From the NCBI RefSeq assembly GCF_020906275.1, contig NZ_CP086727.1, positions 3,403,001 to 3,467,000 of the forward strand: 64,000 bases of DNA, read 5' to 3'. Below, piece by piece: positions 8,528 to 34,113 of the stretch. The stretch is from Parasphingorhabdus litoris DSM 22379. GTDB lineage: Bacteria; Pseudomonadota; Alphaproteobacteria; Sphingomonadales; Sphingomonadaceae. The stretch's first letter is position 1, and every line of letters begins with the position of its first letter. A model generated the notes under the pieces. That model saw only the letters and a list, made by a program, of their open reading frames with translations. It made no database searches and was not told where the DNA came from. A program made the translations under genes and the position numbers.

Positions 8528-8641
8528 GGGAGTTTCGCCTCTCGCTTTTTATAGGGATGAATTGATTGCGCCGATGGATGCGCAATCAAATCAAGCGAGT
8601 CAAGCGAAGGCGTGCAGATTCACGTCCCAGATATCGAGCGA

Positions 8642-10177: not shown

Positions 10178-10272
10178 CTTAATCCCCCTCGCGAGTCTTG
10201 TTGAGGCAAGCATAAATCAGATTGGTTAAAGAAGCGAATCAGTTAAACAATCGGGGCTAGCGCAAGACTAGG

Positions 10273-12423
10273 TTAATTGGTCAGGGAAGCTTCGCTTCTG
10301 AAGAGACGCGTCACTTTGTCGAGCAAACCGCCAGCAACCGACCGGCCGGTTGCCGCGATTTCAACACTGCCGGGGGTGAGCTGCAAAGCCTCACCATCCT
10401 TATAGACTTTTTTCGAGGCGATCAGGCGCACACGGTAAAGGGCGGCGCGGGGCCGCAGGACATTCTCATCCTTGTCCGAGGCGATCGGCCCGCCATTGAC
10501 GGAAGCCAATATCGGCTGATCAATTCTCTCCACTGCATTGGTCGACTTCTCGACCAGCATGGCGGCCCGGGATGCCTGTACCGGATCATCCGGAACAAAG
10601 CGGCCGCGCGCGTCTTTGGATATGCGCCAGATATCATCTTCACTGACATAGGCTTGAATATCATAGTCATCGGATGTCACAATATAGGCAATGGGCTCCG
10701 CCCCGCCGAGCCAACGCCCGCTGTGAATATCCGGCGACAAATCCGTCACAATCCCGGCAATCGGCGCGCGCAGGATGAGGCGCTCGCTGCGCAGTTCAAG
10801 GCCAGCAAGCTGGTCCTGCTCCTGCTTCAATTCGCGTTCGAGGACCATGCGATTGGACAGATCAATCTCGTCCGCCGCACCGCGACCAAATTGCAGTTGC
10901 AGGTTGGCTATTCTGACCTTGGTGGCCGCGATGGACTGTTCCAGCTCGGGAGCAGAGAGTTGAACCAGTGGCGCGCCGGCCGCAACTCTCTGGCCATTCT
11001 CAACAAACAGCTTTTCCACCTTGCCCGGGTCACCGGCGACAATCGGAGACGCCCCAATTGGAGTGAGCACGGCAGGTGCGCTGATATGGCGATCGAGCGG
11101 CAACAGGCAGAGCAGCAGCGCTATGCCGCTTCCAATCAACAGCAACCGCGTCCGTGAAGTGGCCAAGATCCGATCCTTCATGCTCGCCCAGACCTTGAAT
11201 TCCGAAAGCACCGGACGGGCAATGAACACGGCAATTTCAACAACGAACAGGATCACCCCGAGCAATTTGAAAAACAGCGTGTAGACCAACAGCGCGATAC
11301 CGATAAAAAGGAACAGGCGGTAGACCCACGTCATCCACGCATAGACGATCATCCCGCGGCGCAATCGGTCGGGCACCTGTTCGGGTGCCTCATCACCCAA
11401 TGCGAATAGCATCTCACGCAGCCGCCAGCGGCCCAGTGCGAAGGCGCGCGGTTGCAGATTGGGCACGCCGAGCCAGTCGGACAAGACATAATAGCCATCA
11501 AAACGCATGAACGGATTGAGGTTGATCGCAAGGCTCATCACCCAGCTGGTGGTGGCAAGAATGAAGGCGACGCTGCGGAGCATACCGTCGGGCAGCAGCA
11601 CCCAGGCCATGGTCGCAAGGCCCGCGATCATCAGCTCGACCGTGACACCGGCACAATCGATCATCAGCCGCTGCTTGCGCGAGGTCAGCCGCCACGCGCC
11701 GGATGTATCGGTATAGAGAACGGGCATCATCACCAGAAAGCTGACCCCCATGCTCGGCACCCGGCAGCCAAAGCGGGTGGCGGTATAGGCGTGGCCCAGC
11801 TCATGGAGAATCTTGATCACAAACAGGCCGATCCCATAGGCGATGAGACCCTGCCAACTGAAGAAATAGAGAAAGGATGCAAGGAAGCTGTCCCACTGGC
11901 GCGAAACCAGAAACAGGCCGGTGAGGGCCAGCAAGGCGAAGAAGGTCAGGGCCGGATAGGACCAGAGCGGCGCAACCTTGTCGATCGTTCGTTCCAGAAA
12001 AGCCGCCGGTTTGACAATCGGGATGCGGATGAACAGATAATTATCCAGCATCCATTTCCACCAGGCTTTTTTGGCGGTTTCCCGCTGCTCCGTAAAGCTC
12101 GCAACCGTGTCACCCATCGGCGTCACGGTGAGGCTGTTGGTCAGGGAAAAGTCGACGACCTGACCAAAGGCGTTATTGATTTCTTCCTCGTCCAGACCTT
12201 CAGCGACAAGATCATCATTGACCTTCGCCAGATCACCGGATGCCCAGCGGGAGAGGATGCGATATTCAATTCTGCCCAATTGAAAGAACAGATGCCGCAC
12301 CGGGTCAAACAGAGTCCAGCTGGGTGCACCGGTGACCAGAGCCGCGCCCGGCTCAATCCGCAATTCTTGCCGCAATGGCGGCAATAAGGGCCGTTCCGGT
12401 TCGACAGGCACAGCAGCGGTCAT
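10273..12423 (-). CDS. Membrane M50 (site-2-type) peptidase fused to HlyD-type adaptor
   Basis: Last gene of the giant-protein export operon; 716 residues. In order: an N-terminal ~100-residue domain (ELRIEPG, SWTLFDPVRHLFFQLG) that resembles the PqqD-like domains attached to such peptidases; a multi-pass membrane M50 domain with the zinc motif H207-E-L-G-H211 and the second motif NPFMRFDG (N303, D309); further membrane helices to about residue 440; then a periplasmic HlyD-like lipoyl/coiled-coil part (AGDPGKVEKLFVENGQRV, RAPIAGIVTDL). Both peptidase motifs are intact, so it could be active. It overlaps the preceding gene by ATGA. I infer a role in processing or moving the giant protein; no ABC ATPase is encoded nearby. 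Confidence 0.85.
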   Translation of the reverse strand: MTAAVPVEPERPLLPPLRQELRIEPGAALVTGAPSWTLFDPVRHLFFQLGRIEYRILSRWASGDLAKVNDDLVAEGLDEEEINNAFGQVVDFSLTNSLTVTPMGDTVASFTEQRETAKKAWWKWMLDNYLFIRIPIVKPAAFLERTIDKVAPLWSYPALTFFALLALTGLFLVSRQWDSFLASFLYFFSWQGLIAYGIGLFVIKILHELGHAYTATRFGCRVPSMGVSFLVMMPVLYTDTSGAWRLTSRKQRLMIDCAGVTVELMIAGLATMAWVLLPDGMLRSVAFILATTSWVMSLAINLNPFMRFDGYYVLSDWLGVPNLQPRAFALGRWRLREMLFALGDEAPEQVPDRLRRGMIVYAWMTWVYRLFLFIGIALLVYTLFFKLLGVILFVVEIAVFIARPVLSEFKVWASMKDRILATSRTRLLLIGSGIALLLCLLPLDRHISAPAVLTPIGASPIVAGDPGKVEKLFVENGQRVAAGAPLVQLSAPELEQSIAATKVRIANLQLQFGRGAADEIDLSNRMVLERELKQEQDQLAGLELRSERLILRAPIAGIVTDLSPDIHSGRWLGGAEPIAYIVTSDDYDIQAYVSEDDIWRISKDARGRFVPDDPVQASRAAMLVEKSTNAVERIDQPILASVNGGPIASDKDENVLRPRAALYRVRLIASKKVYKDGEALQLTPGSVEIAATGRSVAGGLLDKVTRLFRSEASLTN

Positions 12424-13847
12424 AGGCCGATAGTTTGTCTAAAGCTCGCAATCGGGCGCTTGAGCAGCGAATAGATGAGCGGCACCCACTCGCCATAAAG
12501 CTTGGCGGTGCCGCGCGAGCCAATGCGCGGATTGTCCGACGTCGGTTGGGCTGTCACCGCAAAAGCCAAAATGCCTTCTGCAGTCTGCCGTGCCTGATAG
12601 CTGGCATGTTCAACCTTGCCTTCGATGGCCCAGAGTGGTTGTGCATCTAGCCAGACTTTTACGCGCGATCCATTTTCCAGCGCCATTTGTTCCGCAGCGG
12701 GCAAATCAATCCGCAGTGCGATCTCGCCCGGGTCGGCGACCTGCAATATCGGATCGCCGACATTGACGGCCCGCCCTTCCCAGTCACGGCGGTCGCTATA
12801 AATTGCCATCCCGCCACGTGGGGCTTTGATCTGCGACAAGCCCATAACATCATTGGCGAAATTATAGTCGGCCTGGGCCAGTTCATATTCCGCGCGCAGG
12901 GTTGCGATCTCACGGGTTTCATCATCCTCCCCAAAGGCGGTACTGGTCGACCGGTCTACGCGCGCCTTGGCCACGGCCAGTTTTTCCTGCGCCAGCTTCA
13001 GTTCGTTCGACAGCTTCACGTCATCAAAGGACACGAGCAATGCGCCTTCTTCGACCGCTGCATTGGGTGCCACATGGATACGCGAAATCACGCCGGAAAA
13101 GGGGGCAGCAACCATGAACGGACGTGCGGCCACAACCTCCACAGGTGCCAAGGCGGTCATACGTACCGGGAAGAGCGCGATCACCAACAGCGCGACCAAT
13201 ATGCCGATTTTCTCTTTGCGGCCAAAGCGGCCAATGCGCTTGACCGGCTTGTCTCCGGTCAGCGCTCGCCAGCTATGCGAAACGGTTTCGGAAAGCCGTG
13301 TCAGCCGATAGCCTTCACCTTCGCGAAACGGCGCTTCACGCATCACCAGCAGCCCGCCAAACACCTTGCCCTCGCTGTCCAGCAACGGCTGCCAGCGGCA
13401 TTCGCTATAGGGATATTCCGCCAGCGCGGAATCTTCGCTCATCGCCCCGAGGGTGAAATCATGCGGCCGGTCCAGACCATCATTTTTGGCCAGTTTAGCA
13501 ATCAGCTTTTCCATCGCCTGAATCAGCGGAGCGTTGCGATCGACCGATGATATGCTCGACGCACAGACGATGTGAAAATCATCACCAATACGCGGCTGCC
13601 GCGCGATGAACATCTGCTCATAGGGCAGGATGCGGCGCAATTCATTGGCAACATGATAATGAAGCTCGGCCACCCCCGGCTTGCGACGCACTTCCGCTTC
13701 AAATTGCAGCAAGCTGGCGAGCATATTGGCATCACCGGATATCGGTGCTGCCCCCGAGGCTACAGGTAATATCGCAATGGGCGCGGGGTCGGAATCAGGA
13801 GGGCTGGCGGCCATCGGCTTTTGCTGCTTCTGATTTAGCTGGGGCAT
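12420..13847 (-). CDS. HlyD-family adaptor with N-terminal GAF-like domain
   Basis: 475 residues. A cytoplasmic region at about 45-195 has the look of a GAF domain (LLQFEAEVRRKPGVAELHYHVANEL, then FGGLLVM before a closing helix). A single membrane segment follows at about 213-228 (ILVALLVIALFPV), then a periplasmic adaptor with lipoyl halves (ISRIHVAPNAAVEEGALLVSFDD and the repeat after the hairpin) and a beta-barrel region. So a cytosolic sensor-like domain is tied to a periplasmic duct subunit. The start overlaps the end of the preceding adaptor gene by 53 bp (20 bp if ATG 13814 is used); neither ATG has a strong ribosome site, implying coupled translation. Confidence 0.82.
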   Translation of the reverse strand: MPQLNQKQQKPMAASPPDSDPAPIAILPVASGAAPISGDANMLASLLQFEAEVRRKPGVAELHYHVANELRRILPYEQMFIARQPRIGDDFHIVCASSISSVDRNAPLIQAMEKLIAKLAKNDGLDRPHDFTLGAMSEDSALAEYPYSECRWQPLLDSEGKVFGGLLVMREAPFREGEGYRLTRLSETVSHSWRALTGDKPVKRIGRFGRKEKIGILVALLVIALFPVRMTALAPVEVVAARPFMVAAPFSGVISRIHVAPNAAVEEGALLVSFDDVKLSNELKLAQEKLAVAKARVDRSTSTAFGEDDETREIATLRAEYELAQADYNFANDVMGLSQIKAPRGGMAIYSDRRDWEGRAVNVGDPILQVADPGEIALRIDLPAAEQMALENGSRVKVWLDAQPLWAIEGKVEHASYQARQTAEGILAFAVTAQPTSDNPRIGSRGTAKLYGEWVPLIYSLLKRPIASFRQTIGL

Positions 13848-14769
13848 CGGACGATGCTTTTTCCGCCGCGCTCTGTGCTGGTTTGTCCGACGGTTTCACA
13901 AACACGCCGGTACCGCTCATCCCCGGCAGGACCAGGCTTTCGGTTTTGTCGACATTGCCGGTCACGCGGATGGTCTTGCTCACCGGATCTACCGACGCGC
14001 CTAACCGGGTGATCTGGCCCGTGACATCTGCACCGGTTTCGTCGATCTTGAAAGTGAAGTCCGCGCCGGGACGAAGCCATGTGAGCCAGTTACTCGGTAC
14101 GATCAGCTCTACCTCTAGATCGCCGCCACTCTGAATCGTCAGCAACGGCTGCCCGCTTGCCGCAATCTCTCCGCGACCCGCAATTTCCTCAACCACTGTG
14201 CCAGAAAATGGCGCGTAGACAGCGCAATCGGTCAGGTTTGCCTTGATCGCATTGGCCTCGGCATTGGCTTTGCCGAGATTGGCTTTGGCCACCGCGACCT
14301 CATTCTTGCCAATCGCTTCATACTGGTCGAGCTCGACATTGGTTTTGTAAGTGACATTATAGGCATTGGCCGCCGCTTGCGCAGCTTTCAGCTCTGCACG
14401 AATGGCTGAACAATCAAATTGCGCGAGCAGAGCGCCTTTGCGGAAACTCTGACCCTTGCCAAAGGGCATGGACGTAATCCGGGCAGTCATCCGCGAGGCG
14501 ACCGTTGATTCCTGCTTGGGCTTGATAACGCCACGCACGTCAGGATCCGGACTGGGTTCCGGTTTCTCGGCCTGTGCCTCGGCTGTTTCCTCAGCCTGTT
14601 CCTCGGCCGCGCCCGCAGCTGCTTCGTTGCTGGACCAGTCCGTACCGTCACCGCTGCTGGCAACGGCCACGCCAATGACAGCGGCAAGCGCAATGCCGCC
14701 ACCCCATAGCCATGGCGCCTTTGATTTTTCCCCGGTGTCCGAGGCTTCATCCTCGGGTGCGTCACTCAT
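13795..14769 (-). CDS. HlyD/RND-type periplasmic adaptor (membrane fusion protein)
   Basis: 324 residues. A short cytoplasmic head, one membrane anchor (about 19-39, LWGGGIALAAVIGVAVA), an acidic Glu/Ala/Gln-rich linker (about 50-75), then lipoyl and alpha-hairpin segments (GVIKPKQESTVASRM, LLAQFDCSAIRAELKAAQ, VYAPFSGTVVEEIAGRGEIAASGQPLL) and a beta-barrel domain. The Ala/Lys/Ser-rich tail is low complexity. It sits between the TolC gene and the GAF-HlyD gene, so it probably links the inner-membrane parts to TolC. Confidence 0.85.
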   Translation of the reverse strand: MSDAPEDEASDTGEKSKAPWLWGGGIALAAVIGVAVASSGDGTDWSSNEAAAGAAEEQAEETAEAQAEKPEPSPDPDVRGVIKPKQESTVASRMTARITSMPFGKGQSFRKGALLAQFDCSAIRAELKAAQAAANAYNVTYKTNVELDQYEAIGKNEVAVAKANLGKANAEANAIKANLTDCAVYAPFSGTVVEEIAGRGEIAASGQPLLTIQSGGDLEVELIVPSNWLTWLRPGADFTFKIDETGADVTGQITRLGASVDPVSKTIRVTGNVDKTESLVLPGMSGTGVFVKPSDKPAQSAAEKASSDAPAKSEAAKADGRQPS

Positions 14770-14792
14770 TGAACGTACTTTCTATTGCTCGG

Positions 14793-16286
14793 CTATTGAT
14801 CCAGTTTCATCGCCGCTTCGCGTTCCTGCCACAGGTTCGTTAGGGATGCAGTCAATGTGCTGACATCCTCGCGACCTGTCAGATCGGGGGCAAAATCATC
14901 TATGCCCATCGATGCGAACAGATTGGCATAGGCATTTTGCGCCTCGGCATAGGCTATATCATATTTCACCTCTGCAACCAGCGTGTTCATTTCCTCGCGC
15001 AGCAAGGTTTGTTGGCTCATTGCGCCAGCCTTGTGGCCCGCACGAATCTGATAGAGGATCTTATCCTGCACCCGGTGTTGATGTTCGGCGGTCTGCAATT
15101 CTTCCTGCAAATGACCAAAGCGCGCCCGCGAGACATGGACCTGCGTCATCACCGCCATGGTCAGCGCCAGTTCGCGCTGCCGCAACAGGTCATCCTGTGC
15201 CCGCACCGCCTTTTTCTTCGGACCCAGCTTGAACAGGTTGAGCACGTTCCAGCTCGCCTGCGCGCCATATTGGAACCAGTTATTGTTGAACAGGAAGTCG
15301 TTGGAATCGACATTCACACCTAAGATACCGCGGAAACTGGGTAGAGCTGAGAGCAGGGCCGCATCTAGTTCCTTGCTGTTAATCCGCTGACGATAGCTAA
15401 CCTCACGCAGTTCGGCGCGATTTTTCAGCGCCGTCATCATCATATCTTCGCCGGAATATTTGACGGCGGGCAAATTGTCCGTCCGGTCTGGCAATACCAG
15501 CGAGAAGTTGGTGCCTGGACGCAGGTTCATAAGCGCTGCGAGTTGCGCCTTGGCAACCACAAGTTCACGCTGCAACTTCCGGATCTCGGCCTGAATCTGC
15601 ACCAGTTCGCGCTGATAGGTCAGTGCTGTCAGCGGCGCGGATAGGCGGCGTTCCGCCAGCCGTTCGCTATTATCCAGCGTGGTGCTGACATTGCCTTCCA
15701 GTTCCTTGAGCTTGGTCAGCAGGCGTTCGGCGCTCACTGCGCGCCAATAAGAGGTGCGGACATCTTCGATAATCCGGTTCGCCACTTTCCGCCGGCGTTC
15801 CTGCGAGATCAAAAATTCATCGGCCTTTTGCTGCGAACGGACATAGGACAAGCCGAAGTCGAGCACATCCCAGCTAAGCGACAAGTCGCCCGTGAAAATA
15901 TCCCGCTCGGCGGAAGTTGATGGTTCGAGCGACTGACGCCGCGTTATCAAGGACAGCGAGCTGGCACCGGAGAAATTATTGCGCCCGGCATAGCCTGCAT
16001 TGGCAACCAATTGCGGCAGCATGTCATAGCGCGACAGATTAAGCTCCCGGTTCTTGAGGGCCTCTTCCATCAGCTCGACTTTATAATCGAGATTATATTT
16101 GAGCGCCCGCGCCATGGCTTCATAGAGATTGATCGGAGCTGTTACGGGCTCCTGATCCGCATCCACCGCAACAATATTTTCACGCGCAGTCGTATCGATT
16201 TGCGTTGGTGTCAGTGGTTTGGGATTGACCGCACAGCCTGCCAGTAAGACCAGTGCCGAAATACTCAGAGTCTGTTTCATGTACAT
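14793..16286 (-). CDS. TolC-family outer-membrane efflux/secretion channel, lipoprotein
   Basis: The outer-membrane exit duct of the operon. From ATG 16286 it has 497 residues, with a lipoprotein signal (lipobox L-A-G-C18) and two OEP repeats with long helical stretches. The start is chosen because GGGGAAG lies 6 nt before this ATG; an earlier in-frame ATG directly abuts the stop of the giant gene (TAG-ATG) and a later one lies two codons on. Its position directly behind the giant gene implies co-expression and use in its export. Confidence 0.88.
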   Translation of the reverse strand: MYMKQTLSISALVLLAGCAVNPKPLTPTQIDTTARENIVAVDADQEPVTAPINLYEAMARALKYNLDYKVELMEEALKNRELNLSRYDMLPQLVANAGYAGRNNFSGASSLSLITRRQSLEPSTSAERDIFTGDLSLSWDVLDFGLSYVRSQQKADEFLISQERRRKVANRIIEDVRTSYWRAVSAERLLTKLKELEGNVSTTLDNSERLAERRLSAPLTALTYQRELVQIQAEIRKLQRELVVAKAQLAALMNLRPGTNFSLVLPDRTDNLPAVKYSGEDMMMTALKNRAELREVSYRQRINSKELDAALLSALPSFRGILGVNVDSNDFLFNNNWFQYGAQASWNVLNLFKLGPKKKAVRAQDDLLRQRELALTMAVMTQVHVSRARFGHLQEELQTAEHQHRVQDKILYQIRAGHKAGAMSQQTLLREEMNTLVAEVKYDIAYAEAQNAYANLFASMGIDDFAPDLTGREDVSTLTASLTNLWQEREAAMKLDQ

Positions 16287-16301
16287 ATTCTGCTTCCCCA
16301 T

Positions 16302-19300
16302 CTAAGCCTTGAACGCAGCAAGCAACTGCGCTGTTTCATCTGCAGCGCTGGCATCTGCCATTGCCATGACACTGCCCAGGGGAGCAGCGCCGTTCATGTT
16401 CTGAGAAAGCTTCAGCTTCTCATCAATCTGGATCTCACCCGTTGCACCTTGAATTACAACAGGAATTTCAATCACTTGTCCATCTGCGCGGATGGCCCGT
16501 ACGATCAAGCGAACGGTTTCCGCGTCCACTGGTCGTTCAATAATCGCGAGGCCGCGCGCATCCATGCGGATCCAGCCAGGCAGCGGACTGCCATCACGGG
16601 TGCGCAGCTGATATTCGGTTATGCGCGGATCACTCTCGGCCCCGATATCGCGAACTTCCATATAGATGACCCGGTCGCGGACGACAGATTCGATCATCAC
16701 CTGATCACTGCCGGTCGACAGCTGGCGCACCGAGAAGCCGGTGAGACCTTCCACAAGGAAATCACCGAAGCGCGGATCAAACAGACGGTCCGCACCAAAA
16801 CGCAGATCGCGAATTTTGTCGAGTTGGTCGACCACATCGCTGATTGGATTGCCATTCACATCAAAGGCCCCAACGCCGTTTAGCGAACGCAGTCCGTTCA
16901 CGGCTGTCAGCAACGGTCTGTCTCCGCCCAGATCCGGCGTGTTGTTCAGCGAGCGGAAGCTGTTGACCGTATCGTCGATAATCAGTGGTGTCGTGATGAA
17001 CTCCATGTTCGGATCGATCGTGGTACTTGGCGGTTCGCTATCGGGATAACCGATGCCCGGATTGCCCAGCAATTCGTTCACATTGGCATTGGCCTGCGTC
17101 ACAATCACAGTGGCGGTGGATTCCACAAAGCCGCCCTGCCCGTCGCTGACAATATAGGTGATGGTCGCGACGCCCTGAAACTCGGCTGGCGCAAAATGGG
17201 AAATCGTACCGTCGGGATTGATCACCACGGTTCCGATATCAACCTTGGCGGTGAACACACTTAGCGGGTCACCATCCGGATCACTGCCATTGGCGAGCAC
17301 ATCGATAATCGTTTCCGCGCCACCAATGCCGAATACTTGTTCATCCCCATCAACCGGCACTTCATTGACGTTGCGGACTGTGACCGCCACGGTCGCACTA
17401 GACGTACCACCATTACCATCGCTAATGGTATAAGTGATTGTATCTGTACCAAAAAAGTCAACATTCGGTGTGTAAGTAATCGTTCCATCCGGATTGATCG
17501 TAACTGTACCGTTGGCCGCAATGGCGTTGGTAACGGTCAGCGGATCACCATCCAAATCGACATCATTGGCAAGCACTGGAATGACCAGCGGCACCTCTTC
17601 ATCCGTATCGGCAATATCATTTGCCGCGACCGGCGGGTCATTAACCGGTGTAACGGTTACAGTGATCGTCTGGGTCGTGAAACCGCCATTGCCGTCACTG
17701 ACCTGGTAAGTAATCACATCGGTACCATTGAAATTTGGATCAGGCGTATAGGTGATTGTGCCATCGGGGTTGATCGTCACCGTGCCATTGGGCGAGGTCG
17801 CGCTGGTAATGGTCAACGGATCGCCATCGACATCGGTCGCGTTGTCGAGCGGCGACAAGGTGACAGGCGTATCTTCCGGCGTCTCTGCAACGCTAGGCGT
17901 TACCACCGGCGGATCGTTGACCGGCGTGACATCAACTGTCACGGTTGCCGTGGATGTCCCGCCCTGACCATCGCTAATCGTGTAGGTGATGGTTGTCGGA
18001 CCGTTGAAATCCGGATTGGGCGTGAACGTCACCGTGCCATCAGGATTGATAACCACCGTTCCGTCCGGCGAGCTGGCGTCCGTTACGGTCAGCGGATCGC
18101 CATCGGCATCGGTATCATTGCCAAGCACAGGAATCGTGACCGGTGCGTCCTCGGGTGTCGTAACATTGTCATTTACCGCCACGGGTACATCATTTACCGG
18201 ATTAACGGTGACGGTTGCAGTGGTCGTTGCAAAGCCACCATTGCCGTCAGAGACCGTATATGTGATCGTATCGATGCCGTTGAAATTCGGGTCTGGCGTG
18301 TAAGTCACAGTGCCATCAGGGTTGATGACCACTGTCCCATTGGGCGCGCTGGCCGCCGTAACCGTCAATGGATCGCCATCAGCATCACTATCATTGTCAA
18401 GCACCGATACCGTCACCGGCGTGTCCTCGTCCGTTTGAGCTATATCCGGAGTGGCCACTGGCGCGTCATTGACCGGATCAACTGTCAAGGTAACCGTTGC
18501 CGTAGCCGTGCCGCCATTGCCGTCACTAATGGTATAGGTCACGGTCGTTGTGCCATTGAAATTCGGATTGGGCGTGAACGTCACGGCGCCATCAGGATTG
18601 ATCGTAACCTGGCCATCTGGCGAGGTTGCTCCCGTCACGATGAGAGGATCGCCATCCACATCCGTGTCATTGCCAAGCACGTTCAGCGTGACCGGCGTGT
18701 CTTCTGGCGTGGTTGCGACATCATCATTTGCGACCGGCGGATCGTTCACCGGATTGACCGTTACATTAACAGTCGCAGTTGCTGTCCCGCCCTGCCCATC
18801 GCTAATCGTATAGGCGATAGTCGTTTGACCGTTGAAATCCGGATTGGGTGTGAATGTCACAGTGCCATCAGGATTGATCACCACCGTACCGTCTGGCGAA
18901 CTGGCATTGGTGACGGTCAGCGGATCGCCATCAACGTCACTGTCATTAGCCAGTACCGGAATGGTAACCGGCGTTTCTTCATCCGTTACCGTCGCATCAT
19001 TCACAGCAACCGGTGGATCGTTCACAGGGCCAACAGTGACTGTAACCGTCGCGGTTGATGTCCCGCCATTGCCGTCACTGATGGTATAGGTAATCGTATC
19101 CGTACCGTTGAAATCCTGGTTGGGCGTGTAGTCAATCGTGCCGTCCGGCCGGATAACCACAGTACCATTAGCGGCGCTAGCGGTTGTCACAGAGAGCGTA
19201 TCACCATCAGGATCATTGTCGTTAGCAAGAACCGCTATGTTGACCGGCAGGTCTTCTGATGTCGATGCTGTATCATTTACGGCAATCGGCGGCGGATTGG

Positions 19301-22300: not shown

Positions 22301-25300
22301 GCGTGTCGCCATCAAGGTCGCTGAACTTGTCGCTGACATCAACCGAGATGACATCAGCATCTTCATTGTTGAGATCCGAAATCGGGATATCGACTTCCGG
22401 TGCATCATTAACTGGCGCAACCGTCACTTCGACTGTCGCGGTGGATGTACCGCCATTGCCGTCACTGATCGTATAAGTGATCGTGTCCGTGCCGTTGAAA
22501 TCCTGATTAGGCGTATAAGTGATCGTACCATCTGGATTGATCACGACTGTGCCATTGGGTGCGGTAGCCACGGTGACTGTCAGATCATCGCCATCGGGAT
22601 CATTGTCATTGGCCAACACCGGAATAGTAACAGGGGTATCTTCATCGGTTGTGGCCGTGTCATTGGTAGCTGTCGGTGCCGGGTTTGTAACCGTGTAGGT
22701 GAAGGTGGTCGAGACCGTGCCACCATTGCCGTCATCTGCGGTAACCGTGACAGAATAGACACCGCCATTAACCTGGCTCGCCTGGTTATCAATCGTGCCG
22801 GTTATCAGTCCGGTATTTGGATCGATCGATAATCCGGCCGGCAGCCCGGCAGCCGTAAACGTCAAGGTATCACCATCGACATCGCTGAAATTACCGGCGG
22901 TTGGTATCGAAACGGTCTCGCCATCAATGCCGGTCACGTTGGGCAGCGGGCTATCCGCAACCGGTGCATCATTTACCGGGGTAACGGTGACATCAACTGT
23001 CGCAGTCGATGTGCCGCCATTCCCATCACTGATCGTATAGGTAATTGTATCGGTACCGTTGAAATCCTGATTGGGCGTGTAGGTGATCGTGCCATCCGGA
23101 TTGATTACGACTGTGCCATTTGAAGCCGTCGCCGAGGTTACGCTAAGCGCATCGCCATCGGGATCGCTGTCATTGGCCAGCACCGGAATAGTGACAGGGG
23201 TATCTTCATCAGTTGTGGCTGTATCATCGGTGGCTACAGGTGCAGGGTTATTCACTTCCCAGACAAATGTCTGGCTCACCGTTCCGCCATTGCCATCATC
23301 TGCGGTAACCGTAACGCTGTAAATACCGTTAGAACCGGGGCCACCCTGCGAAGCATCGGGATCGATAGTACCCGTGATATTGCCGGCAGCATCAATGGAC
23401 AGACCAGGCGGCAAGCCAGTTGCGGTAAAGGTTAGCGGATCGCCATCCACATCGGTGAAATTACCTGCAACCGAGACATTGATAACATCTGCATCATTGT
23501 CGTTTTGCGGCGCGATTGGCGTGGCAACCGGCGCATCATTCACCGCATTAACTGTCACTTCGACCGTTGATGTCGCGAAACCACCTTGACCATCGCTGAT
23601 CGTATAAGTGATCGTGTCCGTGCCATTAAAGTCCGGATCAGGGACATAGGTCACGGTGCCGTCTGGATTTATCGTCACCGTGCCATTGGGGGCATCGGCT
23701 GCCGTTACCGTTAGTGGATCGCCATCAACATCTGTGTCATTGGCGAGTACCGCAATATCCACCGGCGTATCTTCGTCTGTGGTTGCACTGTCCATATTGG
23801 CGACCGGGGGATCGTTGACCGCATCAACGGTGACCGCAACCGTTGCCGTCGACGTACCGCCATTGCCATCGCTGATGGTATAAGTGATTGTTGTCGGACC
23901 GTTGAAATTCGGGTTTGGTGTGAAGGTGATCGTACCGTCGGGGTTGATCACCACTGTGCCATCTGGTGATGTCGCAGCCGTAACCGTAAGCGGATCACCA
24001 TCGATATCCGTATCATTGCCGAGTACGCCAATGGTGACAGGCGTGTCTTCATTGGTGGTTGCGCTATCATCAACCGCTACCGGCGGATCGTTGACAGCAT
24101 TGACCGTTACATCAACCGCCGCCGTGGAAGTGCCGCCATTGCCGTCACTGATCACATAGGTAATCGTGTCCATGCCGTTGAAGTCGGCATCGGGTACATA
24201 GGTCAGCGTGCCATCCGGATTGATCGTAACTGTGCCGTTGAGCGCTGTCGCCATGGTCACCGTCAGCGGATCGCCATCTGGATCAGTATCATTGGCGAGC
24301 ACAGTCACATTGACTGGTGTATCTTCATTGGTGGTAGCACTGTCGTTCACCGCGGTCGGTGCCGGGTTTGTGACCGTCCAGGTAAAGGTCTGACTGCTGG
24401 TCAGGCCATCGGGATCCGTGCCAGTGATGGTTACAGAATAGACCCCGCCATTGGGTTGGCTGGCATCGCGGTCAATAGTACCGCTAACAATCCCTGTAGC
24501 AGGATCGATACTGAGCCCTGCCGGTAAACCAGTTGCACTGAAGGCCAGAGTATCGCCATCCACGTCACTGAAGAATTTACCGACATCGACAGAAACCGAT
24601 TGATTATCTTCATTGATGACATCCGGTATTGCCAGCGATTCAGGCGCATCATTGACTGCCGTCACATCAACGGTAAGCGTTGCTGTCGCGGTACCGCCCT
24701 GTCCGTCGGATACGGTATAGGTGACGACTGCCTGGCCATTGAAATTCTCGGCCGGGGTGAAAGTCAGTGTACCGTCGGGATTAACTACAACCGTTCCATC
24801 AGGCGTGCTAGCCGCTGTGATGGTCAGCGGATCACCGTCCGGATCGCTGTCATTGGTCAACACTGCCACCGTGACAGGCGTATCTTCTGGGGTGGTGGCT
24901 GTATCATTCACTGCGATCGGCGGAACATTCTGAATCGAATAGACAAAGGTTGTCGATACGGATTCACCGGACGGATCGGTGGCCGTTACCGTAACAATGA
25001 ATGGTCCGTTGACCGAACTGTCCGAAGCGAGCGTGCCAGTGATCAGGCCTGTATCGGGGTCGATCGCCAAAGAAGGTGGCAAGCCGGAAGCACTAAAGGT
25101 CAGATCATCACCATCAACGTCATCAAATCCCTGTGCCGTTGGGATGGAGACCGTTCCCCCGTCTTCACCATTTTGATTGGCCAGGCCAACAGTGGTTGGA
25201 CCGTCATTAACCGGCGTGACCGTAACCGTGACTGTTGCGGTCGAGAAACCGCCTTCGCCATCACTAATGGTATAGATGATCGTATCTTCACCATTGAAAT

Positions 25301-28300
25301 TGGCATTTGGTGAATAAGCAAGCGTGCCGTCTGGATTGATAGTAACCGTGCCGTTGCCGGCCTCTGCCTCAGTGACGGTCAGCGGATCACCGTCGGAATC
25401 GACATCATTGCTCAGCACCGCAATATTGACGTCTGTATCCTCGTTCGTTGTGATACTGTCATTGCTGGCCACCGGTGCAGGATTGGTAACGGTCCATGTA
25501 AAGGTCGTGGATACCGTGCCGCCACGACCATCATCGGCCGTCACGGTTATGGAATATACGCCGCCATTTACCTGGCTGGCGCTGCGATCAATTGTGCCGG
25601 AGATAACACCTGTGGAGGGGTCAATCGTCAAGCCAGCGGGCAGGCCGGAAGCGGTGTAGGACAGCGTATCGCCATCCGGGTCACTGAATGCCCCCGCCAC
25701 CGGCAAATTGATAACCTGGCTGTCCAGATTGGTCTGATCGCCGATGCTGTTATTCGATATCGGTACGTCATTGACATCAGCAACGGTCACGGTGATTTCG
25801 GCCATTGATGTACCGCCCTCACCGTCTGAAATTTCATATGTGATTGTATCGGTACCATTAAATCCGGGGTTCGGTGTATAGGTAACCGTACCATCAGGAT
25901 TGATCACCACACTGCCATTCAAGGCGCTGGCAGCCGTTATTGTGAGATCGTCCCCATCGGGATCACTGTCGTTGGCTAGAGGCGAGATGGTTACCGGCAC
26001 ATCTTCATCGGTCGATGCACTATCATCAACGGCTGTTGGGCCGGGGTTGGCGACATTGAACGTAATGGTCTGGGTTGTTGTGCCGCCATTACCGTCCGAG
26101 ACAGTGATGGTTGCCGTATATGTGCCACCATTGGTTTGGCTGGCCGAATTATCAATCGTGCCGGATATCACGCCGGTATCAGGATCAATCGACAGGCCTG
26201 GCGGCAGGTCGGTCGCCGCGAAGGTCAGTGTATCGCCATCAACATCACTGAAATTGCCAGCAACCGGAACGGAAATAACCGCACCGTCTTCGGTATCCTG
26301 CGGCGGCAGCGGCGTGCCCACTGGCGCATCATTAACCGGCGCAACCGTAACAGTGATCGTCGCTGTTGCCGTACCACCTTCACCGTCACTGATCGTGTAG
26401 GTGATGGTCGCCGTACCGTTGAAATTGGCTGGCGGCACATAATTTACCTGATTGCCCACCACCGTTGCCTGGCCCACTGATGCCGCCGCAGCAATCAAAG
26501 TAATCGGATCACCATCGGGATCGCTGTCATTAGGCAGCACATCGATCAACACGGGCGTGTCTTCGTTGGTTGTGGCGGTATCGTCCACCGCCACAGGTCC
26601 CGGATTGGTAACGGTCCAGCTAAATTCCTGCGTCGTACTGAGCCCGCCCGCATCTGTTGCCGTGACAGTTACCGTGTAAACACCGTTGGAACCACCTTGG
26701 CTGGCGGATCGATCAATCGTACCAGTGATCTCGCCAGTGGCAGAATCTATGCTTAGGCCAGCAGGAAGGCCAGACACGCTATAGGTCAGGGTTGCATCAT
26801 CGCTATCTGTGAAGCCGCCTGCGGTTGCAACGCTGATACCCGCATCCGCATCGACATTGACCTGTGGCGGCAATGAACCAACCGGTGTCGGCGCGTCGTT
26901 GACCGCAGCAACGGTGACGTCGACGGTTGCAGTGGATGTTCCACCTTCTCCGTCACTAATCGTATAGGTGATCGTGTCGGTACCGTTAAAGTCAGCATTG
27001 GGCGTATAGGTGATGGTCCCATTCGGATTTATCACCACCGTGCCATTATTAGCACTTGCTGTGGTTACCGTCAGATCATCACCATCAGGATCATTGTCAT
27101 TGCTCAGCACATCAACGGTGACAGCTGTGTCCTCATTGGTAGACGCGCTGTCATTGGCAGCCGTTGGTCCAGGATTGGTGACGGTCCATGAGAATGTCTG
27201 GGTCGCAGGTGTTCCTTGGAAATCCGTTGCCGTAATCGTGACTGTATAGACGCCATTCGTGCCGCCCTGACTGGCACTATTGTCAATCGTTCCGGTAATC
27301 TCTCCGGTGGTGGAGTTGATCGACAATCCGGGCGGCAATCCAGTAGCACTATAGCTTATTGTTGGGCCATCAATATCAGTAAAGCCACCTGCAGTTGCGA
27401 CACTGACACCCGCATCGGCATCGACATTAACCTGTGGTGGCAGCGTTCCGACCGGCTGCGGCCCGTCATTTACCGCCACCACAGTCATGTTAAAGACTGC
27501 GGTATCTGTCCCACCTTCGCCATCGCTAATGGTGTAAGTAATCACATCATTGCCATTGAAATTGGCATTGGGTGTGTATGTGAGTGTGCCGTCAGGATTG
27601 ATAACAACCGTGCCATTGGACGCGCTGGCCGAAATGACGGTCAAGTCATCGCCATCCGGGTCCTGATCATTGGCTAGCACATTGACTGTAATCGGCGTGT
27701 CTTCATTGGTCGAACCGCCGTCATCATTAGCCTGTGGCCCCGGATTGGTGATTGTCCAGGCGAAGCTTTGCGTCGCAGATTCTCCATCAGGGTCAGTCGC
27801 GGTAACGACGATATTATAAACCCCGCCAGAGCCACCCTGGCTGGCGCTATTGTCAATCGTTCCGGTAATGGCACCAGTATTGGCGTTGATCGAAAGGCCC
27901 GGCGGCAAGCCGGTTGCCGAGTAGCTGAGTTCACCAAAGCCATTGTCCGGATCGCTAAATCCCTGGGAGGTACTTACGAAAATACCTTGGGCCGCATCGA
28001 CATTAGTCTGGGGCGGCAGGTTACCGACCGGTACCGGCGGATCATTCACCGCTGCTATTGTCACATCGAAGGTTGCCGTCGACGTTCCACCGCGCCCGTC
28101 GCTAATCGTATAAGTGACCGTGTCAGTGCCGGAAAACCCGCTATTGGGCGTATAGTTTAAGGTACCATTGGCATTGATTGTCACAGTGCCATTATTGGCA
28201 TTAGCGGCCGTAACCGTCAGCGGATCACCATCGCCATCAAAATCATTGGCCAGCACATTGATGCCGGTTATCGCGGTACCTTCATTTGTCGCCTGCGTCG

Positions 28301-30713
28301 CATCATTGACCGCTGTCGGCGGGTCATTAATCTCAACCACGCTGATGGTGGAAACCGCGACATTGGAACTCAGCGCAGCATTGGCAAAGCTAACAGTGAT
28401 GTTACGATCCGTCTCCGAAGGTCGTTCTGTTGTATTCTCAAAGGTGATCGCTTTGAGCGCATTTTCATAAGCCGCTGCAGTTGCTCCACCGGTCAGTGAA
28501 ACACCAGTATCCGTTCGAGTATAGCTTATACCACCAGCCAACGTACCCGATGCTGCGGCAGAGCCGTTGACCAGCAAACGGTCACCGGTCTGTGCATTGG
28601 TTAATGTTACAGTAGCATTTTGAACCGTGCCGTCTGGATTTGTAATACGAACGTCGCCGTCAACGATAGCGGTACCGGCCGCATTTTCGACATAGGTTCC
28701 TCGATAAGCCGAACCGCCAGCAGTGCTATCATTCCTATCGAGATCCAGCCTGGGAATAGAGACTGTTGTACCACCCGACCCCAGGTTGAAATCCAGATCA
28801 CCATCATGCCTGAAACCTGCTGCACGGGCGCCTGACGCCGGATCAAGATTATAGGTGATGGTAAAGCTGCTAGTGTCTAGCCAATTAAACCGGGCTGCTG
28901 AACTTGCATCGCCTGACTCATTCAGGGTGCCTGAAGCGGTGACTTCGCCGGGTATCGAGATATCAAAATCAATATCCGATACTCCGGCATTTTCAAACGA
29001 GGATAGGGTATCTGTATCGACCGTTACCCACTCTCGGCTGCGCGGATTATTGCCCACTCCGTCGATATCAGCAACGGTGAACGAAATATCGATATTCACC
29101 GGCGCGCCGCTAGCGGCGTAGAAAACATCCCAGCGAATTTCGGTCGTAGCAATGCCAGACGCACCGCGCTCCCTCATCAGAAAATTCGGATCATCTCCTA
29201 TGGTGCTGAACCGAATATCATCGCCTGCGGTTAGAGATATGACGGTTGCGCGCAGGCTGATTTGTTGACCATTAAACGTCCCGACGTCGGTCCATGTTGC
29301 CGTTGCACCTTGCCCGACACGCGTATTACTTCCAACCGGATTGCCAGCACCGTTGACGACATCGGGGGCACCTGATTGCACAGATATGGCAGTCGAAGCC
29401 AACAACCCATCCCAATTTCGCGCTATCAAAGATGCAGACTCCACCTGACCGACGCGGCTCTCAAGCGTCCAGTCGCCGCCACGCACTATGCTACCGGTAT
29501 CGTCGATCGACGCAGCTATATCTGCGCCGGTTACCGCCGCCAGCGTGTTCATCAGCTGTTGACCCGCCTGATCTGCGCCAACGTCGCAGCCGTAGATTAG
29601 AATATCACCGTCAGCCGATAGCTTTGCGCCGATTGACGCCAGTGAGGAAGCAAGCGCTCCGGTTACGGATGCGCTGTCAATCCGCGTCGTGCCTAACCAG
29701 AACACCCCTTCATCACCATGACTGACAATGTGAATGGCCCCGATCTCACTGGCGCCAGCCAGGGCAGTCATCATTTGGTCAAGGCCATCGCTATTGCCGT
29801 CGATGAAGACGATTGTGCCTTTGCCGGCCCAGGTATCGGCAAGCTCTTGATAATTTTCGACACTGGTGTCGATGAATATGAAATCCTGCCCAGTAGCCGC
29901 CACGTTTTGCGCAACCAAAGCATCTTCTGAAATTTCCGGATCGCCTACGAGCGGCACCCGATTCATAACAAATCGGGAGTCATTATCGTCGATGATGAAA
30001 TAGTCCTGAAAATTGGTAGGCCGAACGCCGGGCTCCCGAAAATCATAAGAAGCCGGTTCACTCCGCACTTCGACTTGCTGGACAACATTATCTTGAACGG
30101 TTCCAGCATCAAATCCTTCATCAGCAATGACAGCGCCACCAGAACCGCCTGTAACAGCGTCCTTTGCAACCACCTGCTCTTTTACAGTAATATTTTCTGA
30201 AATATTTGAAGAATATCCAGGCGCGCTATCCGGCAGAAGCACAGCATCATTGTTCACAGAATTGGTAAGTAGGGCTTCACCAGATGACGCAGATGCCTCC
30301 GACCCGACTGCAGCAATAGAAAGCGCCTCAACACCATCAGCCTCAAGCCCGCCATCCAAGCCATCAAGCACGGCCGAACCCGCCATATCGCTATCGGCAG
30401 AGTCAGGACCAGGGCCAGTTGGAAACGCGCTATCGCCGTCCCGCATAGCGATATCAACTGCAACCATGTCCGGACGGCCATTTTCCGCATAACGCTCGGA
30501 TGTCGTGGGTGGCGCGAGACCAATATTCGGGATCGTATCGCCTACGGAGCCGCCCTTGCCAGAGCCAAAGAAACTGGGAGAAACAGAGCCATTTTCCAGT
30601 GCATCAGCGGCTGCCACAGTCGCAACCGCAGTTACCACAGCAGCGCCATCAAACATCATGCGCGGCTCAAGAGCAATGAGATGGGTTTGCGGTTTTTTAT
30701 TTTGCTTGGCCAT
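16302..30713 (-). CDS. Giant LEPR/DUF4347 tandem-repeat surface protein (4803 aa)
   Basis: Predicted exported adhesin-like protein. The N-terminus has no classical Sec signal but carries the LEPR motif (LEPRMMFDGAA, residues 15-25). After a disordered stretch comes a DUF4347 domain (about 276-438) with conserved SHG (H332) and YGC (C376). Residues 440-797 hold beta-rich, cadherin-associated domains. About 798-4545 is an array of some 40 Ig-like units with DPDGD calcium-type motifs. A unique 258-residue C-terminus ends the protein. No RTX nonapeptides are seen. ATG 30713 has GGAGAG 4-5 nt upstream. It is the first gene of an operon with TolC, HlyD adaptors and M50-HlyD. Roles in attachment or biofilm are inferred from the architecture. 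Confidence 0.9.
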   Translation of the reverse strand: MAKQNKKPQTHLIALEPRMMFDGAAVVTAVATVAAADALENGSVSPSFFGSGKGGSVGDTIPNIGLAPPTTSERYAENGRPDMVAVDIAMRDGDSAFPTGPGPDSADSDMAGSAVLDGLDGGLEADGVEALSIAAVGSEASASSGEALLTNSVNNDAVLLPDSAPGYSSNISENITVKEQVVAKDAVTGGSGGAVIADEGFDAGTVQDNVVQQVEVRSEPASYDFREPGVRPTNFQDYFIIDDNDSRFVMNRVPLVGDPEISEDALVAQNVAATGQDFIFIDTSVENYQELADTWAGKGTIVFIDGNSDGLDQMMTALAGASEIGAIHIVSHGDEGVFWLGTTRIDSASVTGALASSLASIGAKLSADGDILIYGCDVGADQAGQQLMNTLAAVTGADIAASIDDTGSIVRGGDWTLESRVGQVESASLIARNWDGLLASTAISVQSGAPDVVNGAGNPVGSNTRVGQGATATWTDVGTFNGQQISLRATVISLTAGDDIRFSTIGDDPNFLMRERGASGIATTEIRWDVFYAASGAPVNIDISFTVADIDGVGNNPRSREWVTVDTDTLSSFENAGVSDIDFDISIPGEVTASGTLNESGDASSAARFNWLDTSSFTITYNLDPASGARAAGFRHDGDLDFNLGSGGTTVSIPRLDLDRNDSTAGGSAYRGTYVENAAGTAIVDGDVRITNPDGTVQNATVTLTNAQTGDRLLVNGSAAASGTLAGGISYTRTDTGVSLTGGATAAAYENALKAITFENTTERPSETDRNITVSFANAALSSNVAVSTISVVEINDPPTAVNDATQATNEGTAITGINVLANDFDGDGDPLTVTAANANNGTVTINANGTLNYTPNSGFSGTDTVTYTISDGRGGTSTATFDVTIAAVNDPPVPVGNLPPQTNVDAAQGIFVSTSQGFSDPDNGFGELSYSATGLPPGLSINANTGAITGTIDNSASQGGSGGVYNIVVTATDPDGESATQSFAWTITNPGPQANDDGGSTNEDTPITVNVLANDQDPDGDDLTVISASASNGTVVINPDGTLTYTPNANFNGNDVITYTISDGEGGTDTAVFNMTVVAVNDGPQPVGTLPPQVNVDADAGVSVATAGGFTDIDGPTISYSATGLPPGLSINSTTGEITGTIDNSASQGGTNGVYTVTITATDFQGTPATQTFSWTVTNPGPTAANDSASTNEDTAVTVDVLSNDNDPDGDDLTVTTASANNGTVVINPNGTITYTPNADFNGTDTITYTISDGEGGTSTATVDVTVAAVNDAPTPVGSLPPQVNVDADAGISVATAGGFTDSDDATLTYSVSGLPAGLSIDSATGEITGTIDRSASQGGSNGVYTVTVTATDAGGLSTTQEFSWTVTNPGPVAVDDTATTNEDTPVLIDVLPNDSDPDGDPITLIAAAASVGQATVVGNQVNYVPPANFNGTATITYTISDGEGGTATATITVTVAPVNDAPVGTPLPPQDTEDGAVISVPVAGNFSDVDGDTLTFAATDLPPGLSIDPDTGVISGTIDNSASQTNGGTYTATITVSDGNGGTTTQTITFNVANPGPTAVDDSASTDEDVPVTISPLANDSDPDGDDLTITAASALNGSVVINPDGTVTYTPNPGFNGTDTITYEISDGEGGTSMAEITVTVADVNDVPISNNSIGDQTNLDSQVINLPVAGAFSDPDGDTLSYTASGLPAGLTIDPSTGVISGTIDRSASQVNGGVYSITVTADDGRGGTVSTTFTWTVTNPAPVASNDSITTNEDTDVNIAVLSNDVDSDGDPLTVTEAEAGNGTVTINPDGTLAYSPNANFNGEDTIIYTISDGEGGFSTATVTVTVTPVNDGPTTVGLANQNGEDGGTVSIPTAQGFDDVDGDDLTFSASGLPPSLAIDPDTGLITGTLASDSSVNGPFIVTVTATDPSGESVSTTFVYSIQNVPPIAVNDTATTPEDTPVTVAVLTNDSDPDGDPLTITAASTPDGTVVVNPDGTLTFTPAENFNGQAVVTYTVSDGQGGTATATLTVDVTAVNDAPESLAIPDVINEDNQSVSVDVGKFFSDVDGDTLAFSATGLPAGLSIDPATGIVSGTIDRDASQPNGGVYSVTITGTDPDGLTSSQTFTWTVTNPAPTAVNDSATTNEDTPVNVTVLANDTDPDGDPLTVTMATALNGTVTINPDGTLTYVPDADFNGMDTITYVISDGNGGTSTAAVDVTVNAVNDPPVAVDDSATTNEDTPVTIGVLGNDTDIDGDPLTVTAATSPDGTVVINPDGTITFTPNPNFNGPTTITYTISDGNGGTSTATVAVTVDAVNDPPVANMDSATTDEDTPVDIAVLANDTDVDGDPLTVTAADAPNGTVTINPDGTVTYVPDPDFNGTDTITYTISDGQGGFATSTVEVTVNAVNDAPVATPIAPQNDNDADVINVSVAGNFTDVDGDPLTFTATGLPPGLSIDAAGNITGTIDPDASQGGPGSNGIYSVTVTADDGNGGTVSQTFVWEVNNPAPVATDDTATTDEDTPVTIPVLANDSDPDGDALSVTSATASNGTVVINPDGTITYTPNQDFNGTDTITYTISDGNGGTSTATVDVTVTPVNDAPVADSPLPNVTGIDGETVSIPTAGNFSDVDGDTLTFTAAGLPAGLSIDPNTGLITGTIDNQASQVNGGVYSVTVTADDGNGGTVSTTFTYTVTNPAPTATNDTATTDEDTPVTIPVLANDNDPDGDDLTVTVATAPNGTVVINPDGTITYTPNQDFNGTDTITYTISDGNGGTSTATVEVTVAPVNDAPEVDIPISDLNNEDADVISVDVSDKFSDLDGDTLTFTATGLPAGLSIDANGVITGTIDPGASQINGGVYTVTITADDGNGGTVDGTFTWTVTNPAPTAVNDTATTNEDTPSAPIAVLANDNDPDGDTLTVTSATAPNGTVAINLDGTLIYTPNANFNGTDTITYAISDGQGGTSTATVEVTVTPVNDAPTADPPLNNQTNDDADMVSVDVSGSFEDLDGDTLTFTATGLPAGLSIDANGLISGTIDPDASQVNGGVYTVTVTADDGNGGTVDSTFTWTVNNPAPVAANDTASTTEDTSVNIPVLTNDNDPDGDTLTVISANSENGTIVIEADGTLTYQPDPNFNGTDTIVYTISDGNGGTATATVEVTVTAVNDAPETVGLPDLFDSNNEVISVPLGSAFSDVDDATLTYNVTGLPTGLTFDPATGQVTGTTGATASSDVPNGEYTVTVTATDAAGLNVSTTFTWTITNEPPRANNDNFVGTEDTPINLDVLANDVDPDGDPTTPIVITSAVATNGTAVILPDGTIDFTPDPDFNGTATVTYTIQDANGEFATAVATIVIAPVNDAPDATILPNRDGLDGDAVSEDFGPLFSDPEGGVLTFTAANLPAGLSIDANGLITGTIDADASQTNGGVYQVEITATDDGGLETTQSFIWTIGNPGPTANADTASTTEDTPTAPIDVLTNDNDPDGDALTVTTASAPNGTVVINPDGTLTYTPDANFNGTDTITYEISDGQGGTSTSTVTVTVGAENDDPTVTPLAALGNADADVIALDVSGNFDDLDGDTLTFSQTGLPPGLSIDAAGNITGTIDPSASQGGPNGDGIYSVTITADDGNGGTVSSTFSWTVTNPPPVAANDGPIAVTEDTPLDIDVLGNDTDPDGDTLTVTLATAGHGDVTINPDGTINYAPDPDYNGPDTITYTISDGNGGTSTATVEINVGSVNDDPVASPIAPRDNVDGATVSVSVAANFSDVDGDPLTFTASGLPAGLSIDANGLITGTIDSGASQVNGGVYTVTITADDGNGGTVDQDFTWTITNPPPIAVNDTASTSEDLPVNIAVLANDNDPDGDTLSVTTASAANGTVVIRPDGTIDYTPNQDFNGTDTITYTISDGNGGTSTATVTVTVGPVNDPPVAVNDATVTDEETPVTIPVLANDSDVDGDPLTVTNASSPDGTVVINPDGTVTFTPNPDFNGQTTIAYTISDGQGGTATATVNVTVNPVNDPPVANDDVATTPEDTPVTLNVLGNDTDVDGDPLIVTGATSPDGQVTINPDGAVTFTPNPNFNGTTTVTYTISDGNGGTATATVTLTVDPVNDAPVATPDIAQTDEDTPVTVSVLDNDSDADGDPLTVTAASAPNGTVVINPDGTVTYTPDPNFNGIDTITYTVSDGNGGFATTTATVTVNPVNDVPVAVNDNVTTPEDAPVTIPVLGNDTDADGDPLTVTDASSPDGTVVINPDGTVTFTPNPDFNGPTTITYTISDGQGGTSTATVTVDVTPVNDPPVVTPSVAETPEDTPVTLSPLDNATDVDGDPLTITSATSPNGTVTINPDGTITYTPDPNFNGTDVITYQVSDGNGGFTTQTITVTVTPVNDPPVAANDIADTDEEVPLVIPVLANDVDLDGDPLTVTNAIAANGTVTINPDGTITYTPNVDFFGTDTITYTISDGNGGTSSATVAVTVRNVNEVPVDGDEQVFGIGGAETIIDVLANGSDPDGDPLSVFTAKVDIGTVVINPDGTISHFAPAEFQGVATITYIVSDGQGGFVESTATVIVTQANANVNELLGNPGIGYPDSEPPSTTIDPNMEFITTPLIIDDTVNSFRSLNNTPDLGGDRPLLTAVNGLRSLNGVGAFDVNGNPISDVVDQLDKIRDLRFGADRLFDPRFGDFLVEGLTGFSVRQLSTGSDQVMIESVVRDRVIYMEVRDIGAESDPRITEYQLRTRDGSPLPGWIRMDARGLAIIERPVDAETVRLIVRAIRADGQVIEIPVVIQGATGEIQIDEKLKLSQNMNGAAPLGSVMAMADASAADETAQLLAAFKA
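17079..28322 (-). repeat. Coding tandem array: 25 tandem-95 cadherin-like and 15 He_PIG-like units
   Basis: Hand parsing of the protein gives two unit types of about 92-97 residues. Type B (NEDTPV...VLAND.DPDGD..TVT...NGTVVINPDGT..YTP..NFNGTDTITYTISDG) matches tandem-95/Big_9 modules; type H (GLPPGLSID..TG.ITGTID.SASQ.NGGVY.VT) matches He_PIG/dystroglycan-type modules. The order is seven B-H pairs, then B-B-B-H, then seven more B-H pairs, then a run of eight B units before the C-terminus. Reading from the N-terminus, the total is 25 B and 15 H. Confidence 0.88.
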
Positions 30714-31318: not shown

Positions 31319-31371
31319 ATATGACCGGTGGCCGACTATTCCGCTCCGCGAACAGGAACAGAGGGCTCAAA

Positions 31372-33516: not shown

Positions 33517-33518
33517 TC

Positions 33519-34103: not shown

Positions 34104-34113
34104 GGTGTTGATT

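Follow-up and report, generated by a model that had tools for sequence, protein, structure and literature searches.

A five-gene operon of Parasphingorhabdus litoris as a candidate leader-guided export system for a giant surface protein

Secretion of large adhesins by type I secretion systems (T1SS) is known from proteins of the LapA and SiiE type. Among ribosomally synthesized and post-translationally modified peptides (RiPPs), excerpts of one source describe daptide pathways in which a RiPP recognition element (RRE) is fused to the N-terminus of an intramembrane site-2 protease. This RRE-dependent peptidase, MpaP, removes the leader, in which the precursors have the motif ELExMEAP in common (PMC10036551). 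Partial texts of two further sources describe lasso RREs, whose cleft binds leaders of the form [Y/W]xxPx[hydrophobic] (PMC13381572), and ATP-binding cassette (ABC) exporters with a C39 peptidase (PCAT), in which recognition of the leader, cleavage and export reside in one inner-membrane protein (PMC8277102). Here we describe an operon from a window of 64,000 nucleotides (the whole stretch analysed, positions 3,403,001 to 3,467,000 of contig NZ_CP086727.1) within the complete 3.61-Mb genome of Parasphingorhabdus litoris DSM 22379, which encodes a giant repeat protein, a TolC-type channel and three HlyD-type adaptors, one of them fused to an M50 metalloprotease. In our judgement, these genes fairly likely form an export system dedicated to a single giant surface protein, which an N-terminal leader would guide much as leaders do in RiPP pathways.

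As we envisage it, the cytosolic RRE of the M50-HlyD protein would bind the giant by its conserved LEPRxMFDGAA leader. At the inner membrane, the intramembrane metalloprotease fused to the RRE would cut within this leader or directly behind it, and the M50-HlyD, GAF-HlyD and RND-type adaptors would dock the TolC-like channel, through which the giant would leave the cell in a single step; its DUF4347 domain perhaps cuts itself at a later stage. The parallels with daptide and lasso RREs are the reason for proposing the leader as a docking and cleavage signal for M50-HlyD.

The gene set and its occurrence in other genomes

The layout given in a preliminary description of this DNA, made from its letters alone, comprised five minus-strand genes at 10273-30713 (giant repeat protein, TolC, RND adaptor, GAF-HlyD and M50-HlyD) with three of their four junctions overlapping or abutting; the coordinates confirm it, and family scans of the five products returned TolC (OEP), three HlyD-type adaptors, and M50 together with HlyD in the last gene. 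This five-gene set is common to Proteobacteria, Nitrospirota and plasmids of Escherichia coli. M50-HlyD relatives in genome contigs account for at least 580 of the 595 stretches listed, the best 80 of which were kept for locus analysis. The closest among the matches listed belongs to an uncultured Sphingomonadaceae bacterium (M50-HlyD 98% identical); going by their record names, the relatives listed extend to Sphingomonadales, Azospirillum, Rhizobiaceae, Hyphomicrobium, Pelagibacteraceae, Pectobacterium, Serratia, Pantoea, Marinobacterium, Burkholderiales, Zetaproteobacteria, Desulfovibrio and Nitrospira, and many of all these relatives are metagenome-assembled genomes. In the 62 loci that extend 5 kb or more upstream of M50-HlyD, GAF-HlyD was found in 60, a second adaptor in 54, TolC in 51 and all three in 50. 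Two loci (L034 and L099) had initially fallen out of the 80 through their HELAH/HELSH motif; L034, with adaptors and no TolC match, was restored to this set, from which L099 and 17 loci with less than 5 kb upstream were excluded.

Giants bearing the leader (LEPR) occur together with M50-HlyD, GAF-HlyD and TolC genes in other genomes, a co-occurrence for which the preliminary description had suggested a search. On plasmids, matches were found in 79 records, and nine of the ten plasmid loci examined carry a leader-bearing giant, TolC, both adaptors and M50-HlyD, the Phyllobacterium locus being the exception. The four machinery genes (80% or more of the query, identity 99% or higher) are present in 22 of 5426 E. 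coli genomes, with 21 of 25 places plasmid-borne, and on the single E. coli plasmid examined the five-gene block lies between insertion sequence (IS) elements. Gene order varies: TolC-giant-RND-GAF-M50 in genome G028, the giant downstream in G091, flanked by two adaptor genes in locus L087 and upstream of both in L090, and a full set in a different order on the Eleftheria plasmid. In Azospirillum lipoferum (L019), a MazEF-type pair on the opposite strand (19121-19722 of that locus) separates GAF-HlyD from M50-HlyD, and in Citrobacter (L022, near-identical to the E. coli plasmid locus L021) GAF-HlyD is annotated as two overlapping open reading frames (ORFs); genome G175 and the Niveispirillum plasmid L020, whose replicons are equally long, are not independent. 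Genes annotated as tail fibers adjoin the operon in Niveispirillum (L174), Azospirillum (L175), Burkholderia anthina (L176, 5409-6023) and Kosakonia (L178, 22074-24181, three in a row), and possibly encode a second, small cargo.

The M50-HlyD protein, the leader and the DUF4347 domain

In a structure model, the N-terminus of M50-HlyD has the beta3-alpha3 winged-helix fold of PqqD-like RREs. Two loci, L162 and L171, yielded one and the same PqqD sequence, and the duplicate was removed. VIA-align was used as a second look at Foldseek matches, in which silence on a fold leaves that fold possible. The protease part reaches 30.3 bits in Pfam M50 (cut-off 27.2), and the site-2-type residues are intact, with HExxH and NxxPxxxxDG on membrane helices in 86 of 86 cases. 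M50-HlyD joins in one chain an RRE fold, a site-2-type protease with its residues intact and an adaptor for the periplasm, and this combination could take over substrate recognition and cleavage. PADLOC gave no defence-system match for the M50-HlyD and GAF-HlyD proteins.

The leader itself was recognized as the LEPR-XLL domain NF012209 near the N-terminus of the P. litoris giant (residues 14-31; 17.3 bits, cut-off 17), and giants of these operons share a near-N-terminal motif of roughly LE[P/A/S]Rx[M/L][F/Y/L]D[G/A]A. A regular expression for it, partly shaped on the same ORFs on which it was counted, matched 25 of 6972 ORFs (at least 60 aa, 85 loci), the shortest matching ORF having at least 588 aa. 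In a class sample of 240 genomes, 11 of the 240 encode an M50-HlyD protein, and the LEPR hidden Markov model (HMM) exceeded its cut-off in 16 of the 240. The convincing matches (G000, G033, G050, G162, G175) all fall in M50-HlyD genomes, that of G050 on a separate contig; G028 has the motif inside its operon below the cut-off (16.0), and G091 a variant spotted by eye, LEARIAFDAAGAA. Nine of the 16 genomes have no M50-HlyD match. All nine were inspected: five matches (L104, L105, L114, L115, L119) look spurious, lying deep within frames or in a 31-aa frame, and four (L106, L108, L112, L113) are ambiguous, being short frames with LExR-like letters, so that some LEPR-like proteins may occur in genomes lacking M50-HlyD. 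Two further over-cut-off matches in M50-HlyD genomes, L116 (G070) and L117 (G028), were judged spurious by eye, and inspection extended to few of the matches under the threshold.

After the leader, giants carry a second conserved element. Counting partial giants too, a DUF4347-type cysteine motif (YGC or similar) follows it in 29 of the 33 listed, and in 20 both motifs stand at the expected spacing; H66-G67 and G109-C110 (alignment numbering) are invariant in the nine aligned domains. In the P. litoris giant, C376 at the dyad position is the sole cysteine among 4803 residues. Giants of E. coli, B. anthina and Kosakonia likewise have one cysteine each, in the same motif, and those of Eleftheria and Pectobacterium (L054) have none. 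The Peptidase C80 model gave weak matches in two of the nine domains (best E 0.00093; P. litoris E 0.13; all below cut-off), comparable to a match of the unrelated model DUF5919 to one domain at E 0.00072. Among PDB sequence matches of DUF4347 no clan-CD structure occurred, the sole clear match being another DUF4347 protein, 9qpe_G. These patterns suggest that the domain may be a self-cutting, clan-CD-like (C80-like) peptidase with a putative His-Cys dyad.

At the other end of the cargo, where T1SS substrates have an uncleaved C-terminal secretion signal, a recurring C-terminal motif was found in 12 of 35 giants and 4 of 778 other ORFs, by an expression picked after the tails had been seen and with related giants included; the 35 are those retained by a filter on Cys and Arg+His content. 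The Variovorax giant gene spans 48,720 bases by annotation.

The missing ABC partner and the rival explanations

The operon lacks an ABC ATPase gene, as first described, and none of the 34 ABC_tran hits of the genome lies inside the window. An HlyD-type adaptor and a TolC-type channel are linked to the cargo gene, as in T1SS; the dedicated ABC transporter of such systems is not encoded in the operon. The genome encodes three ABC_membrane exporters, whose best scores against the HlyB, LssB and PrtD models are 364.6, 313.9 and 223.9 bits (cut-offs 725.55, 693.1 and 510.15), and no T1SS ABC exporter in this complete genome exceeds any of the three curated cut-offs. Near the operon, eight ABC-like ORFs were detected in 6 of the 80 loci (1.365 Mb), against about 13 expected in the same length from the density in the P. 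litoris genome (34 in 3.61 Mb; a rough control, as detection methods differ). ABC genes are therefore not enriched around it, and to the question of how often an ABC ATPase accompanies these genes, raised by the preliminary description, the answer is that a missing partner is usual.

Several observations weigh against a leader-guided system of this kind. The RRE region of the P. litoris protein has no Pfam match even at E 10; the PqqD HMM matches the corresponding place in only 3 of the 11 M50-HlyD genomes (E 0.02, 0.066 and 0.17), at 15.1-16.6 bits against a cut-off of 23.4, and it matches unrelated places equally well (E 0.04-0.05). With the daptide metalloprotease model NF041824 the M50 part scores 151.6 bits, where 300 are required. 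In the E. coli leader S replaces P, and the leader differs from the lasso motif [Y/W]xxPx[L/V/I/A/F/Y]. At least one partner gene is missing nearby in 12 of the 62 loci. In Phyllobacterium (L177, 13755-29053) only GAF-HlyD and M50-HlyD are present, with a 1412-aa HrpK-domain protein upstream, no leader, TolC or RND gene locally, and a T1SS ABC/HlyD pair at a distance of about 5 kb; a Serratia locus (L076) encodes an adaptor 2.9 kb and a 700-aa ABC protein 4.2 kb from where M50-HlyD starts, and L071 a 542-aa ABC protein.

As to what would drive export, we hold tentatively that secretion might proceed without an ATP transporter of its own, the RRE, intramembrane proteolysis and adaptors selecting and launching proteins of about 1,500-16,000 residues through a three-adaptor TolC conduit. 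On the same tentative footing, power could come from a non-ABC source, such as the membrane potential or the folding of repeats once they are outside, in Proteobacteria, in Nitrospirota and on plasmids. The preliminary description had put M50-HlyD in the place of the ABC transporter or, as an alternative, proposed an ATPase borrowed from elsewhere. Recognition and leader cleavage have probably been taken over by M50-HlyD; a part as motor would be conjecture, its domains pointing neither to an energy source nor to a conduit. It is somewhat doubtful that the adaptors instead borrow a motor, recruiting an unlinked housekeeping MacB-like or MsbA-like ABC protein or RND pump into an ordinary tripartite exporter: the absence of ABC enrichment speaks against this, as does the E. 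coli plasmid, whose block between IS elements contains no pump gene, although the host itself encodes ABC proteins. In P. litoris, the ABC pair nearest to the operon was rejected as a partner. About 14 kb off and outside the window (L203, 2732-7418), it consists of an ABC ATPase and a MacB-like permease, and looks zinc-related by eye because of the His-rich loop of the permease and the adjoining His-rich TonB receptor.

We consider it unlikely that the giant leaves in two steps, crossing the inner membrane through Sec with its leader and Ala-rich stretch as an atypical signal, M50-HlyD removing the anchor before export from the periplasm by the adaptors and TolC. Site-2 proteases often act on membrane-spanning segments, which favours such a route, and the stretch AAVVTAVATVA after LEPR in the P. 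litoris giant has a peak hydrophobicity of 2.22, above the signal of the TonB receptor in the window (1.85) and near that of TolC (2.44), a value that also counts against one-step export. On the whole, though, the leader region is less hydrophobic than Sec signals, with a median peak of 1.5 in 34 giant entries (one reaching 2.5) versus 2.49 in TolC proteins (n=61), the ranges overlapping in that the lowest tenth of TolC values falls below about 1.39; the 34 entries count the E. coli protein twice, include a near-identical Citrobacter one and do not include that of Cupriavidus (L179). A sharp leader motif 3-88 residues from the N-terminus is unlike a Sec signal, and an RRE fold would fit a Sec substrate poorly. 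Least probable, and in our estimate very improbable, is that M50-HlyD serves as a regulator or as a protease for quality control, with export of the giant left to an unrelated T1SS. Of the 11 genomes, 6 (G033, G050, G091, G147, G162, G175) do encode a T1SS ABC that exceeds one or more of the three cut-offs, and Phyllobacterium and Serratia have one near the operon, which also tells against the leader-guided reading. Five, however, have none over the cut-offs (G000, G028, G070, G109, G193), the complete P. litoris genome included, although G193 is only 64% complete and G028 a near miss (572 of 693 bits), and scoring was limited in several genomes to the best 46-57 candidates; moreover, in nine of the ten plasmid loci the giant is linked to TolC and adaptor genes belonging to the operon itself.

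Beside the operon and on the same strand follow genes for a wax ester synthase/diacylglycerol acyltransferase and a short-chain dehydrogenase (7613-10213). Divergent from the start of the giant, 31321-35601 encodes a siderophore-type TonB receptor, a 194-aa ORF without family match and a PepSY_TM protein.

Table. Features of the operon, in window coordinates
Feature	Position	Strand	Detail
Giant cargo	16302..30713	-	4803 aa; N-terminal LEPR leader, DUF4347, ~40 Ig/cadherin-like tandem repeats
Leader motif LEPRMMFDGAA	30639..30671	-	residues 15-25 of giant
DUF4347 (PF14252)	29424..29879	-	residues 279-430 of giant; SHG...GC motif
C-terminal tail of giant	16305..16394	-	last 30 residues; no match to the relatives' recurring tail motif
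TolC-family outer-membrane factor	14793..16301	-	502 aa; lipobox-like N-terminus (LLAGC), read from sequence
RND-type periplasmic adaptor	13795..14769	-	RND_mfp 109.4 bits, cut-off 94.9
GAF-HlyD adaptor	12420..13847	-	N-terminal GAF fold, single hydrophobic helix, HlyD/MacA-like part
GAF domain	13254..13739	-	residues 37-198 of GAF-HlyD; GAF fold in structure model
M50-HlyD protein	10273..12423	-	716 aa; RRE fold, site-2-type protease, HlyD adaptor
RRE (PqqD-like) domain	12112..12387	-	residues 13-104 of M50-HlyD; fold in structure model
M50 core	11494..11832	-	HELGH (207-211), NxxPxxxFDG (301-310)
HlyD/MacA-like periplasmic adaptor part	10339..11094	-	residues 444-695 of M50-HlyD

Relation to described systems

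The operon may represent an undescribed way of secreting very large proteins. We found no published description of the gene set in the open-access literature, subscription journals and preprints lying outside that search; one paper that shares the terms (PMC12661370) is, in the portion of its text available, unrelated to it. The names LEPR-XLL/LEPR-8K (NF012209) and DUF4347, both of which apply to the giant, are merely those of sequence families. If the proposal is true, many environmental and enteric bacteria export giant surface proteins by machinery for which no published description was found, RiPP leader peptides and adhesin secretion are joined, and the LEPR-XLL motif gains a role. It also makes testable the question of whether a protein can be exported by a TolC-type conduit without a dedicated energised transporter.

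The resemblance to MpaP of the daptide pathways lies in an RRE N-terminal of an M50-type protease and in adjoining substrates that carry a short leader motif at the N-terminus (ELExMEAP in daptides, LEPRxMFDGAA in the giants); unlike that pathway, the cargo runs to thousands of residues, a C-terminal HlyD adaptor is added, and no daptide tailoring genes are among the five. Lasso leaders are of the same kind as LEPRxM, not identical to it. PCAT proteins similarly link leader recognition, cleavage and export in one inner-membrane protein, but do so with a cysteine peptidase and an ATP-driven pump, in place of the metalloprotease without ATPase seen here. With T1SS for large adhesins the operon shares a cargo of giant size built of tandem repeats, encoded together with HlyD-type adaptors and a TolC-type channel, and perhaps, on some cargo tails, the recurring C-terminal motif; it differs in having no ABC transporter in the operon, three differing adaptors, a conserved N-terminal leader, and an adaptor fused to an RRE fold and an intact intramembrane protease. 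In classical T1SS, recognition resides in the ABC exporter, whereas here recognition, cleavage and docking would be fused in M50-HlyD.
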